From assembly GCA_017432345.1 (NCBI GenBank), contig JAFRJI010000036.1:1-32254 (forward strand): a stretch of DNA of 32,254 nucleotides, written 5' to 3'. The notes under the pieces were generated by a model. The model had not been told where the DNA came from. It did no database searches and saw only the letters and a program-made list of their open reading frames with translations. Shown here piece by piece: positions 12,647-17,932 of the stretch. Positions within the stretch are counted from its first letter, which is position 1, and each line of letters begins with the position of its first letter. A program made the position numbers and the translations under genes. This DNA is from Bacillota bacterium (GTDB lineage Bacteria; Bacillota; Clostridia; Peptostreptococcales; Anaerovoracaceae).

Positions 12647-15239
<2,593 letters not shown>

Positions 15240-15300
15240 TTGTAGTCCCCCTTTTGGTTGGTTTTTAGCAGATACCCCTTTTGATCTCTCTGCTGATTCT

Positions 15301-15330
15301 ATTGTAATCCCACCATGTATACAAAGTCAA
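15301..15330 (-). promoter_or_regulatory. Sigma-A promoter of clpB
   Basis: Reading leftward, TTGACT (15330-15325) and TACAAT (15306-15301) are separated by 18 bp. This leaves a leader of about 55 nt before ATG 15239. Confidence 0.7.
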
Positions 15331-15337
15331 TACTTTT

Positions 15338-15364
15338 TTGGCACTCACCGACAGAGAGTGCTAA
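15338..15364 (+). promoter_or_regulatory. CIRCE operator (HrcA binding site)
   Basis: The element reads TTGGCACTC, nine bases, GAGTGCTAA. The CIRCE consensus is TTAGCACTC-N9-GAGTGCTAA, so there is a single mismatch in the left arm. HrcA represses heat-shock genes through this site. It lies eight bases upstream of the clpB -35 and about 14 bp before the -35 of the divergent decarboxylase gene. It is orientation-neutral and could serve either promoter. Confidence 0.92.
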
Positions 15365-15377
15365 TAATTTTCTTTTC

Positions 15378-15407
15378 TGTACAATTTTCACTCGTATATG
15401 GTATTAT
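15378..15407 (+). promoter_or_regulatory. Promoter of the glutamate-decarboxylase-like gene
   Basis: TGTACA (15378-15383) lies 18 bp before TATTAT (15402-15407), which is preceded by TGG, giving an extended -10. The expected start is near 15414, only about 16 nt before the ATG. Confidence 0.5.
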
Positions 15408-15429
15408 TTACTCAGGAAGGAGAATAACC

Positions 15430-16860
15430 ATGCTTTACGGAGAAAAAAATAAAGAAACACTGGAAAAAGTACGCAGTGTCTTACTGGATTTCGGAATCAA
15501 GAAACACGAAGGTATGATCCCGAAATACAAGCTGAATAAGACATCGATCGACGCGGATACCGCGAAACTGCTCATCGAGAATCAGCTGCTGGACGAGGGA
15601 AATTCCCGCCAGAATCTGGCGACGTTCTGTCAGACCAGAATGGAAAAACAGGCTCAGGAGCTGATGGCGGAGACGCTGGATAAGAACGCCATTGACAAGT
15701 CGGAATATCCACAGACAGCGGAACTGGAAAACCGCTGCGTAAACATCCTGGCCGATCTTTGGAACGTTCCGGATGACGGCGAATATTTGGGCACCTCTAC
15801 GGTCGGCAGCAGCGAGGCCTGCATGCTGGCCGGCATGGCCATGAAGTTCCGCTGGCGGAATCAGGCAAAAGCTCTCGGAATGGATGTGCGTGCCCGCGAC
15901 GCGAATCTGGTCATCAGTTCATCCTACCAAATCTGCTGGGAGAAATTCTGCACGTACTGGGATGTCGAGATGCGCGTGGTGCCGGTGCAGCCGGATAAGC
16001 TGACGCTGGATCTGAGCAGCGTCATGGATTATGTGGATGAATACACCATCGGCATCGTCGGTATCCAGGGAACGACCTATTCCGGCGAATACGATGATAT
16101 CAAGGGGCTGGACGCATTGGTCGCGGACTACAACTGGAACCATCCGGACCGTCCGGAACTGGTGATCCATGTCGACGCGGCCTGTGGCGGCATGTTCACG
16201 CCGTTCATCGAGCCGGAGCTGAAATGGGACTTCCGCCTGCCGAATGTCGTTTCGATCTCCACATCCGGACACAAATACGGATTGACCTATCCGGGCGTTG
16301 GCTGGATCGTATGGCGCGACCGGAAGTACCTGCCAAAAGAACTGATTTTCGAAGTCAGCTATCTGGGCGGACATATGCCGACCATGGCCATCAACTTCTC
16401 CCGCAGCGCCAGCCAGATCATCGGCCAATATTACAATTTCCTGCGGTTCGGCTGGGAAGGTTTCCTGCTGATCCATCAGAGAACTTTGCAGAGCGCGTTC
16501 CATATCGGATCGAACATCGCGGAAACCGGCTTGTTCGAGCTGTACAATGAAGGACGCCGTACACCGATCGTCTGCTATAAACTCAAGGAAAACGCCAGGT
16601 ATAAAGACGGCACGCCGGTGGTCTGGAACATGTACGACTTATCGGATCGCCTGCGGATGCGCGGATGGCAGGTCCCGGCCTACCCTCTGCCGCACGGGGC
16701 GGAAGATGTCATCGTGCAGCGGATCGTCTGCCGCGGAGACTTCTCATTCAATATGGCGCAGGCCTTCGTGCAGGACTTCGAAGCATGCCTGGAAGAACTG
16801 AAGCACGCTCACGTGCTGTGCAACGAACAAAAGTCCGGCAGCTACGGATTCACCTATTGA
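15430..16860 (+). CDS. gadB: PLP-dependent decarboxylase, glutamate decarboxylase type
   Basis: The 476-residue group II PLP decarboxylase shows STVGSSEACMLAGMAMK, HVDAACGGMFTPF (the Asp that pairs with the PLP ring nitrogen) and STSGHKYGLTYPGVGW with the Schiff-base lysine at K282. The length and the N-terminal segment FGIKKHEGMIPKYKL are close to E. coli GadA/GadB (466 residues). The expected reaction is L-glutamate to GABA and CO2, consuming a proton, as in acid resistance. No glutamate/GABA antiporter gene is adjacent, so substrate identity rests on similarity. AGGAAGGAG lies upstream of ATG 15430. It diverges from clpB across a CIRCE site, so stress-linked expression is possible. Confidence 0.88.
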   Translation: MLYGEKNKETLEKVRSVLLDFGIKKHEGMIPKYKLNKTSIDADTAKLLIENQLLDEGNSRQNLATFCQTRMEKQAQELMAETLDKNAIDKSEYPQTAELENRCVNILADLWNVPDDGEYLGTSTVGSSEACMLAGMAMKFRWRNQAKALGMDVRARDANLVISSSYQICWEKFCTYWDVEMRVVPVQPDKLTLDLSSVMDYVDEYTIGIVGIQGTTYSGEYDDIKGLDALVADYNWNHPDRPELVIHVDAACGGMFTPFIEPELKWDFRLPNVVSISTSGHKYGLTYPGVGWIVWRDRKYLPKELIFEVSYLGGHMPTMAINFSRSASQIIGQYYNFLRFGWEGFLLIHQRTLQSAFHIGSNIAETGLFELYNEGRRTPIVCYKLKENARYKDGTPVVWNMYDLSDRLRMRGWQVPAYPLPHGAEDVIVQRIVCRGDFSFNMAQAFVQDFEACLEELKHAHVLCNEQKSGSYGFTY

Positions 16861-16881
16861 TCGAACGGCGGGTCTCGCGCA

Positions 16882-16933
16882 GATTCCGCGTGGATTCCGA
16901 TTCGGATTCCTGATGTGATTCCTCATCGATTCT
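16882..16933 (+). repeat. Phased GATTCC repeats
   Basis: GATTCC occurs at 16882, 16893, 16905 and 16917, with GATTCT at 16928. The steps are 11, 12, 12 and 11 bp, about one helical turn. The array lies between the end of the decarboxylase gene and the ncRNA promoter, ending 40 bp before the -35. Such phasing suggests a cooperative protein-binding site, but no binding protein is identified. Confidence 0.55.
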
Positions 16934-16972
16934 GAACCGAAATTGGTGGTTTTTGGAATTTTCAAAAAACTC

Positions 16973-17000
16973 TTGCAATTTCAAAAACATGTGCTATACT
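16973..17000 (+). promoter_or_regulatory. Promoter of the structured ncRNA
   Basis: TTGCAA (16973-16978), 16 bp, then TATACT (16995-17000) preceded by TGC, an extended -10. The predicted start at about 17007-17008 coincides with the first base of the first RNA stem. Confidence 0.7.
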
Positions 17001-17007
17001 ATTAGTA

Positions 17008-17290
17008 GTCAGAACAGACCGGAAGGGTCGACGACCTGACACGAACATTCCAAAAATAAAGGTTCCGCGGTACATGTTTGCAGAGCGCCCGAGGTTTGAA
17101 GTAGAAACCAGGGGATTATGGGGAGAGACCCCAACAGGGAGAACCGGAGAAGCGTTAGTACTCCGGCAGGAACCGGGCAAGTGGCCCGGGAGGAACCGAA
17201 AGAAGGAGGGTGATTCCGCCAGAAGTTAAAGTAATAGTATAAACAGCTGTTTCGTGCGAGAAGTGTGAAACAGCTGTTTTATTTCATTTT
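17008..17290 (+). ncRNA. Structured non-coding RNA of unidentified class
   Basis: A 508-bp stretch without a protein gene holds a transcription unit with its own promoter and a strong terminator. Visible pairings are: GTCAG (17008-17012) with CTGAC (17036-17040), enclosing GACC/GGTC (17017-17020 / 17026-17029); GGTTT/AAACC (17093-17097 / 17105-17109); GGGG/CCCC (17120-17123 / 17129-17132); CCGGAG/CTCCGG (17144-17149 / 17161-17166); CCGGGC/GCCCGG (17173-17178 / 17184-17189). GGTTCC at 17061 can pair long-range with GGAACC at 17169 or 17192. The RNA is GC-rich with purine-rich joining segments. It is not tRNA, tmRNA, RNase P RNA, SRP RNA or a common riboswitch by the motifs I know. A raiA-type RNA is one idea, unproven. 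The lipoprotein gene downstream has its own -10 and is probably separate. Confidence 0.75.
17241..17290 (+). terminator. Rho-independent terminator of the ncRNA
   Basis: A 13-bp perfect stem, AAACAGCTGTTTC (17241-17253) with GAAACAGCTGTTT (17267-17279), is followed by a T-rich tail (TTTTATTTCATTTT). Each arm is itself nearly palindromic (CAGCTG). Confidence 0.9.
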
Positions 17291-17320
17291 ATTAAAGAAC
17301 CGTTTGTTTCAAAACTCCTG

Positions 17321-17329
17321 TGATATAAT
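17321..17329 (+). promoter_or_regulatory. Extended -10 of the lipoprotein gene
   Basis: TGA followed directly by TATAAT (17324-17329). No well-spaced -35 is visible. The start would be near 17336, about 33 nt before the ATG. Confidence 0.5.
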
Positions 17330-17368
17330 TGCGATAGACTCTAACAAGGGCAATCAGGAGGTATCAAA

Positions 17369-17932
17369 ATGAAACATAGAAATATATTTATCTTGGTCAC
17401 CGCCGTTGTTTTAGCGTTTTGCATGACGCTCTCCTTTGTGGGATGCGGCTCAACGGGTGATGAGACAGAGACCGAAGAAACCGAAGCCACTGAAGAAACG
17501 ACTGAAGCGGTCGATCCGGCCAGTGAATACGATATTGCAGCAGGCCTGGTACTGAATGATGACGGTGAAGATGCGATTCTCGTCGGCAATGGATTTGAAC
17601 TGACCATGCCGAATACAGGCACCTGGTCCTATAACGTGACCGGCCTGGATTCCATGGAACTGTATTACCTGACAGCGGCAGAGGCCGACTTTGGCGGCAT
17701 CTTCCTGACGATCGTAGCGATGGATATCGACGATAACACCTACGAAGAATGGCCTTCCTATGCGGTGGCCGGCGTGAACGAAGATCTCGGCAAGCGCTTC
17801 ATCGCGATGTACCCGACGGACGTCCAGTATAATCCGGAAGACCCTTACCAGGAAGAAGAGTACATGACGCTGCTGGATCACGTCCGGACCATCAACGAGA
17901 CTTCCGCGGGAAGCCCGTTCGTCATCAAATAG
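17369..17932 (+). CDS. Lipoprotein of unknown function, 187 aa
   Basis: The N-terminus MKHRNIFILVTAVVLAFCMTLSFVGC is a lipoprotein signal with a lipobox ending at Cys26. It is followed by an acidic, threonine-rich linker (ETETEETEATEETTEAVDP) typical of surface-exposed tethers. The remaining 130 residues form a soluble domain with beta-strand-like segments (DAILVGNGFELTMPNTGTWSYNV and FGGIFLTIVAMDIDD). I do not recognise the family. AGGAGG lies eight bases before ATG 17369. It ends four bases from the convergent FTR-like gene. Confidence 0.85.
   Translation: MKHRNIFILVTAVVLAFCMTLSFVGCGSTGDETETEETEATEETTEAVDPASEYDIAAGLVLNDDGEDAILVGNGFELTMPNTGTWSYNVTGLDSMELYYLTAAEADFGGIFLTIVAMDIDDNTYEEWPSYAVAGVNEDLGKRFIAMYPTDVQYNPEDPYQEEEYMTLLDHVRTINETSAGSPFVIK

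Follow-up and report, generated by a model that had tools for sequence, protein, structure and literature searches.

A structured RNA family of Anaerovoracaceae and Fusibacter with a core nearly complementary to the 16S rRNA 3' tail and a CodY-like box at its promoter

The DNA stretch analyzed here (the window, 32,254 nucleotides) contains a transcription unit without an open reading frame, located 3' of a gene for a PLP-dependent decarboxylase (Pyridoxal_deC, in the region 15031-16860) and 5' of a lipoprotein gene. Its features are compiled in Table 1. The first-pass annotation had described a complete, ORF-less RNA unit with a TTGCAA element and an extended -10, a first stem beginning at the predicted start and a 13-bp terminator stem. 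Our promoter scan retrieves this promoter and predicts an RNA start near 17007 on the + strand, with the GTCAG/CTGAC stem following directly; the terminator stem is present as well, with 17 pairs rather than 13. The scan returned two promoter-like sites compared with a shuffle mean of 1.1, so the promoter is weak as a lone piece of evidence, a weakness that is offset by the recurrence of the same promoter in relatives (see below). The RNA folds with a predicted energy of -95.5 kcal/mol, compared with -72.7 ± 4.7 kcal/mol for dinucleotide shuffles (z = -4.86), none of 200 shuffles being equally stable. Together with the conserved helices, these features bear out the reading of the region as a complete RNA unit.

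Table 1. Features of the RNA locus in window coordinates
Feature	Position	Strand	Remarks
CodY-box-like palindrome AATTTTCAAAAAACT, directly 5' of the -35	16957..16971	+	2 mismatches to AATTTTCWGAAAATT
Promoter TTGCAA-16-TG.TATACT, extended -10	16973..17000	+	promoter scan; conserved in relatives
5' hairpin GTCAG/CTGAC, inner GACC/GGTC	17008..17040	+	fold; inner helix with one compensated change
Long-range helix GGTTCC (17061-17066) / GGAACC (17192-17197), closes multibranch domain	17061..17197	+	fold
Hairpin CCC..GGTTT-GAAGTAG-AAACC.GGG (helix 4)	17088..17113	+	fold
Hairpin TGGGG-AGAGA-CCCCA	17119..17133	+	compensated T-A to C-G change
Extra hairpin CCGGAGAAGCGTTAGTACTCCGG	17144..17166	+	among three homologs only in the window copy; absent from G018 and G013
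Hairpin CCGGGC-AAGTG-GCCCGG	17173..17189	+	two compensated pairs
Family core AGAAGGAGGGTGATTCCGCC, nearly complementary to the 20 nt at the 3' end of 16S rRNA	17201..17220	+	edit distance 4 to AGAAAGGAGGTGATCCAGCC
Place of the relatives' mini-ORF, GTT AAA GTA ATA GTA TAA	17225..17242	+	no start codon
Terminator helix, 17 pairs (17241-17279), loop GCGAGAAGT, T-rich tail	17241..17290	+	conserved in G018 and G013

A BLAST search with the whole RNA located it in two other genomes of the same genus (G018 and G013) among 41 genomes, its own included. The three-way alignment conserves the promoter, the 5' hairpin, AAATAAAGGTTCCG, the hairpins, GGAGGAACCG, the purine tract and the terminator. Overall, 93% of the alignment cells pair and 6 of 48 pairs are changed on both sides, a number matched by 2 of 500 shuffles, with slid registers giving 0-1. 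Based on three sequences, the covariation over the whole structure lends modest support. The first-pass annotation had proposed covariation as a check and had pointed to a possible long-range GGTTCC/GGAACC pairing; covariation is found at the six pairs, and GGTTCC/GGAACC is invariant across the three full-length homologs, so that its covariation neither supports nor refutes the helix. The arms of helix 4 differ in G018 and G013, yet they can pair after realignment by eye; in the program's alignment 72.7% of its cells pair, a shortfall that is partly due to misalignment. In the terminator (helix 8), 87.9% of the cells are paired.

The three loci share part of their neighborhood. In G018 and G013 the RNA adjoins a divergent clpB-type gene (Clp_N and AAA_2 in both, ClpB_D2-small in the complete one), with a CIRCE-like element in between. 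In the window, the decarboxylase gene separates clpB from the RNA, and the CIRCE-like element has remained beside clpB rather than beside the RNA. This inverted repeat (15338-15364, upstream of clpB) has one mismatch to the CIRCE consensus, with zero such matches expected by chance, and is probably an HrcA heat-shock operator. A lipoprotein gene lies 3' of the RNA in all three loci, the two other proteins being 49% and 53% identical to the one in the window. The first-pass annotation had assigned this gene its own promoter; a TATAAT-like box can be read upstream of it, and our scan called no + strand promoter there.

A covariance search of the window against Rfam 15 at gathering scores returned no match in the RNA region and, elsewhere in the window, two tRNAs only, in line with the earlier statement that the sequence matches no tRNA, tmRNA, RNase P, SRP, 6S RNA or riboswitch. 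At E ≤ 10, positions 16850-17400 gave chance-level matches to eukaryotic Rfam families only and none to RF03072 (raiA). Twenty homologous loci compared with Rfam at E ≤ 1 yielded one unrelated tRNA.

The whole-RNA BLAST search, with hits in 2 of 40 related genomes, had hidden a larger family, which was revealed by a covariance model of the core. A first model (R1) gave weak but consistent matches in the genus (8/49 genomes) and the order (16/297). Ten of these matches, viewed as alignments, have one common 3' block, AAGAAAG-R-GGUGANNCCRCC-AGAARU, with the shared core AGAAAGRGGUGANNCCRCC, and a 20-row alignment agrees with it. With the window's own genome included, a second model (R2) matched in 29 of 197 genomes of the family and 2 of 391 of the class, and a third (R3) in 18 of 49 of the genus (E ≤ 0.05) and 50 of 393 of the order (E ≤ 0.01); in the class (1/381) and the phylum (1/169), R3 found the window's own genome alone. 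All of these tallies are lower bounds, as part of the first-look candidates was scored per genome. Similarly, the 31 of 49 genus genomes in which R3 did not find the RNA include many incomplete MAGs with partly scored candidates; the RNA may nevertheless be dispensable.

A pattern scan of named genomes yielded 30 stretches, including two likely chance matches, from Emergencia, Anaerovorax, Candidatus Avanaerovorax, Fusibacter, and MAGs titled Bacillota, Clostridiales, Eubacterium and the like. The RNA is present in Emergencia timonensis SN18 (L069) and in Anaerovorax odorimutans SL.3.17 (L088). Emergencia and Anaerovorax belong to the Anaerovoracaceae, Fusibacter to the Fusibacteraceae. IMG/VR contains no exact instance of the core pattern, and the window RNA has no blastn match in the phage and plasmid collections. 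From 54 core matches we removed the two chance matches (L065, Microbacterium; L079, an Ignavibacteriae MAG) and merged near-duplicates, leaving 47, 48 or 49 loci depending on the length required. One isolated match lies outside the order (L059 in G809, same class, other family); it has a mini-ORF (MQTEPKN) and a terminator-like stem, is without a good CodY-like box and could be a transfer or an ancient member.

A clear promoter of the same type as in the window is found 5' of the core at 46 of the 49 non-redundant loci, and the promoter score is ≥12 at 51% of loci compared with 0.4% of shuffles. The core lies about 20 nt past the predicted start in L055 and about 250 nt past it in L042, the two extremes; in several relatives, a single small hairpin flanked by AAATAAA and AAGAAAG takes the place of the window's multibranch domain. 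A 3' stem with a U-tract has a median of 16 pairs, compared with 7 in shuffles (95th percentile 11); 85% of 47 loci lie above this percentile, and an automatic search finds stems of ≤9 pairs at 7 of the 47. As the stem is found by a search for complementarity, its pairing is circular and its length relative to shuffles alone counts. The weak covariance matches thus showed the window RNA to be an enlarged representative of a family that occurs in Anaerovoracaceae and Fusibacter. Three Fusibacter-type loci (L026 from Fusibacter bizertensis, L027, and L074) carry two tandem cores, 200-350 nt apart.

The family core is a near-complement of the 16S rRNA 3' tail. As the tail was not found in the window's own genome or in four others, we used the E. 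timonensis sequence GGCTGGATCACCTCCTTTCT, which we take to be the last 20 nt of the mature 16S rRNA and whose complement is AGAAAGGAGGTGATCCAGCC. The edit distance to this complement is 3-5 for every one of the 49 collected cores (21 at 3, 21 at 4 and 7 at 5). Shuffled cores reach ≤3 edits in none of 20,000 cases and 4 edits in 6 of 20,000. In the window plus the 30 stretches (506,250 bases, both strands), the cores account for 13 of 13 sites at distance 3 and for 15 of 17 at distance 4. Since the loci were gathered with models and patterns that contain GTGA..CC.CC, the counts lack full independence; the informative part is the scarcity of other near sites, together with indel variants that stay near. 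The 43 loci from the last model are likewise at 3-5 edits, 42 of them by script and L125, whose match lies elsewhere in the locus, read by eye as AAGAAAGAGGTGAGTCCACC. L107 and L108 depart from CCRCC (AACACC) and are at distance 5. Pairing with 16S rRNA is kept in the core indel variants AAAGAGG, AAAGGGG, AAAGGAG and AAGGAGGG. Different members thus lose different bases of GGAGG and keep the pairing, which, in our interpretation, would be expected if pairing rather than exact sequence were selected. The match begins opposite the 16S terminus and extends on both sides past the partner of the Shine-Dalgarno sequence, and the complementarity appears to exceed both chance and the extent of a Shine-Dalgarno sequence.

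The predicted duplex between the window core and 16S rRNA has an energy of -28.9 kcal/mol, compared with -16.2 ± 3.0 kcal/mol for shuffles (0 of 200 as good). The family median is -24.7 kcal/mol, and twelve hand-picked ORF starts of the window range from -5.7 to -16.1 kcal/mol. Duplex energy was dropped as sole proof of pairing, as values down to -32 kcal/mol occur at unrelated sites in the window; it is the sequence match, not the energy, that makes the argument. In 48 folded RNAs, the purine tract is predicted to be unpaired (mean 0.78 compared with 0.44 for the whole RNA; 0.68 in the window). The GGUG of the core is predicted to be mostly paired in a hairpin of its own (mean unpaired 0.14), which must open for full pairing with 16S rRNA; in the window, this alternative fold is GGTG/CGCC (17209-17212 / 17217-17220).

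Most relatives have an RTG 3' of the core, opening a short reading frame whose stop lies at the base of the terminator stem. This frame has 5-8 sense codons in 40 of 52 ORF rows and up to 16 in the others, the rows including one spurious pattern match (L023, VKH) and one frame cut by a contig end (L073). The first stop at offset 28-41 is in frame at 33 of 48 loci; the two alternative frames have 5 and 10 such stops. RTG occupies the same position at 37 of 48 loci, TAA, TAG and TGA are all in use, and three loci with one extra base before the ATG (L025, L055, and L122) retain the ORF. Residue 4 is Glu in 28 of 44 frames, near-duplicates included (motif M-x-x-E...R/K), and the last codon is mostly Arg or Lys, with Arg specified by four codons; residue 4 and the C terminus are the sole positions that show a preference. 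The ORFs of L101 and L107 differ by synonymous changes only. Among the 26 nearest pairs, near-duplicates again counted, codon changes are nonsynonymous in 67 cases and synonymous in 18, and the three codon positions carry 38, 46 and 46 changes. With no excess at the third position, the peptide seems weakly constrained, and translation or its stop site may matter more than the peptide itself. In the window, G018 and G013, the start position reads GTT, GTA and GTA, respectively, and residue 4 is not Glu; in this lineage, the mini-ORF looks lost and the 16S complement kept. The first copies of the tandem Fusibacter-type loci likewise have no start codon, and their frame ends after PPx-Y/T codons. 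In an Emergencia-like group (L022, L023, L024, and L069), there is no stop at this place and the frame reads on. We also considered a GTG start within GGUGA (peptide V-S/R/I-P-P-E, with a polyproline stall in mind). This was rejected: the GTG overlaps the Shine-Dalgarno-like tract, no start is conserved in the upstream frames, and the loci with an extra base keep the downstream ORF.

Directly upstream of the -35, the window promoter carries a palindrome resembling a CodY box, and many loci have AATTTTCARAAAA in this place. The CodY consensus is given as AATTTTCWGAAAATT in PMC5314169. We compared the 46 loci with a clear promoter, skipping the remaining 3: a box with ≤3 mismatches is present at 30, compared with 1.8% of shuffles, and at 33 the best box starts 37-41 nt 5' of the -10. 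The median number of mismatches is 2 at 34 family promoters and 8 at 22 other promoter-like sites, two of which (L048 and the second copy in L027) do lie at family loci. The Fusibacter copies L026, L027 and L074 have no good box (4-6 mismatches). CodY itself (PF06018) is encoded in 23 of 24 genomes, including the window's own (G000, 168 bits), and codY is also present in genomes in which the RNA was not found. The boxes at the promoters and the presence of codY make control by CodY, repressing or activating, likely in Anaerovoracaceae.

We infer from these features a scheme for the expression, CodY control, 30S binding and physiological role of the RNA, and regard it as plausible, if somewhat short of probable: a CodY-linked RNA would pair with the 16S 3' tail, withholding 30S subunits from initiation and/or shielding the 16S end. 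A strong promoter with an operator of the CodY type would drive an autonomous small RNA, whose unpaired purine tract and small hairpin would complement the whole single-stranded 16S 3' tail, including the anti-Shine-Dalgarno sequence. Nutrient supply would shift CodY activity, and the RNA would then base-pair with free 30S subunits; these would be kept from initiation and/or have their 16S 3' end covered, where RNase R starts degradation. In relatives with a mini-ORF, an engaged ribosome might be parked between the 16S duplex behind it and the terminator helix ahead, and in the window lineage, with no start codon and an enlarged 5' domain, pairing alone would have to suffice. According to the literature, RNase R begins 30S degradation at the 16S 3' end/anti-Shine-Dalgarno (PMC10901742), the hibernation factor HPF protects ribosomes from RNase R (PMC8406268), and CodY controls the HPF gene hpf in Staphylococcus aureus as both activator and repressor (PMC6256015). 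A nutrient-linked RNA at the 16S end would fit this existing logic. The window's genome encodes a long-form HPF, so that the RNA would act beside HPF, not instead of it; the gene for this HPF (Ribosomal_S30AE plus C-terminal domain) is found at positions 892-1461 of L005, beside the raiA RNA.

Against this mechanism, the genome has a protein hibernation factor already and the mini-ORFs kept in relatives argue that translation matters there. The main rival, which we consider rather unlikely but by no means negligible, is a tiny mRNA in which the 16S complement serves as an unusually long, extreme Shine-Dalgarno sequence for a micropeptide usually of 5-8 residues, the window copy being in decay or repurposed. 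The phased stops, the RTG at a fixed position and the use of all three stop codons speak for such an mRNA, as do the ORFs retained next to an extra base, the recurrent Glu-4, the terminal Arg/Lys and the purely synonymous differences between L101 and L107. The same frames, however, encode a weakly conserved peptide, with nonsynonymous changes far outnumbering synonymous ones, and have no start codon in the window, G018, G013 and the first Fusibacter-type copies. In bacteria, the usual spacing between Shine-Dalgarno sequence and start is 5-9 nt, and here the RTG lies 14 nt past the Shine-Dalgarno core. Moreover, only two other background sites come as near to the full 16S complement. It is much less probable that the purine-rich tract acts as a sponge for C-rich regulatory RNAs or for an RNA-binding protein, its likeness to the 16S complement stemming from the affinity of these targets for Shine-Dalgarno sequences: the GA-rich tract is mostly unpaired in the 48 folded RNAs, and C-rich small RNAs in Firmicutes generally target Shine-Dalgarno-like sequences, both of which would suit a sponge, but the match outruns the Shine-Dalgarno core in both directions, with AGAAAG as far as the 16S terminus and with UCC-RCC at the other end, and survives the indel variants. 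A reading as a CsrA sponge, raised by the many GGA motifs of the window RNA, was set aside on a few relatives read by eye.

A cis-acting leader or attenuator of the downstream gene, in the window the lipoprotein gene, would explain why this gene is constant in the window, G018 and G013. We consider it very unlikely: a strong terminator intervenes, and the first downstream ORF lies on the same strand at 26 and on the opposite strand at 23 of 49 loci, a count that takes in near-duplicates as well as tandem copies. Pfam confirms some of the opposite-strand genes (PP-loop ATPase, patatin, Exo_endo_phos). Nine of ten sampled neighbors are recognizable and unrelated (HIT, LysO, PP-loop ATPase, patatin, EF-G, ParB, and others). 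The mixed strands and unrelated neighbors show that the RNA does not serve one particular gene as its leader, and the relatives in varied gene contexts, with their conserved promoter, helices and terminator, speak for an independent structured RNA, as the first-pass annotation had it. That annotation had not mentioned the 16S complementarity, the CodY-like box or the relatives' mini-ORF. Its other suggestion, a raiA-type RNA, fared worse. The window's genome has a genuine raiA RNA on another contig (G000:C28:19778-19944, RF03072, 138.7 bits at a cut-off of 101.3), which excludes raiA as the identity of the RNA described here. A divergent raiA RNA would account for a 12-nt hairpin loop common to both RNAs, but this hairpin sits at a variable place of the raiA model and RF03072 is silent in the region even at E ≤ 10; we hold this origin to be extremely improbable.

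We rate the kind of RNA as new, absent as it is from Rfam 15, and put its function forward as a hypothesis. Among the open-literature matches listed, there is no description of this RNA or of any CodY-linked RNA complementary to the 16S tail, and we know of no RNA class with a free-standing gene and a near-complete 16S-tail complement as its core. Tentatively, and with less confidence than we attach to the mechanism itself, it would represent a new class that pairs with the entire 16S tail and in this way regulates or preserves ribosomes, is switched by CodY, has an optional ribosome-parking mini-ORF, and could be viewed as an RNA equivalent of the proteins that act in hibernation. In that case, a chromosomal RNA would target the ribosomal anti-Shine-Dalgarno under control of a nutrient sensor, and would thus control or protect ribosomes in a way so far attributed to proteins, HPF among them. 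Shielding of the 16S 3' end by an RNA in starving Firmicutes, and the mini-ORF as a ribosome trap, would then become directly testable in the named species. On a conservative reading, there is a structured and conserved family, absent from Rfam 15, in a poorly studied lineage.

The RNA resembles several known systems in part. With S. aureus HPF under CodY it shares a CodY-type promoter and the proposed nutrient-linked occupation or protection of 30S subunits, whereas HPF is a protein at the decoding center and the molecule described here is an RNA complementary to the 16S 3' tail. Like leader peptides and the peptide-coding small RNAs, as described in PMC5521070, it is in most relatives a short transcript with a Shine-Dalgarno sequence, a mini-ORF and a terminator, but it usually has 5-8 codons, a poorly conserved peptide, a far longer Shine-Dalgarno complement and, in the window clade, no start codon. 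As in trans-acting small RNAs that pair with mRNAs, there is an own promoter, an own terminator and an unpaired seed-like tract; unlike there, the sequence points to an rRNA partner, a comparison drawn from the rRNA match alone. The raiA RNA of this genome is likewise structured and comes from a gene of comparable size; it differs in architecture, gives no covariance match to our RNA and is present separately.

Some minor observations concern individual loci. In Emergencia-like loci (L022, L023, L024, L069, and L075), the RNA lies 3' of a gene of 113-115 codons, with a HIT domain identified by Pfam in L022, the copy examined. A frame beginning MAQVIV starts about 140 nt past the terminator in L022 and resembles ribosomal protein S21 by eye. 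In the window's genome, the loop GAAGCGNTAGTA, presumably bulged-G-like, is common to the window-only hairpin CCGGAGAAGCGTTAGTACTCCGG and to a variable hairpin of the raiA RNA, CCGGGGAAGCGATAGTACCCGG, and may be a shared or convergent module.
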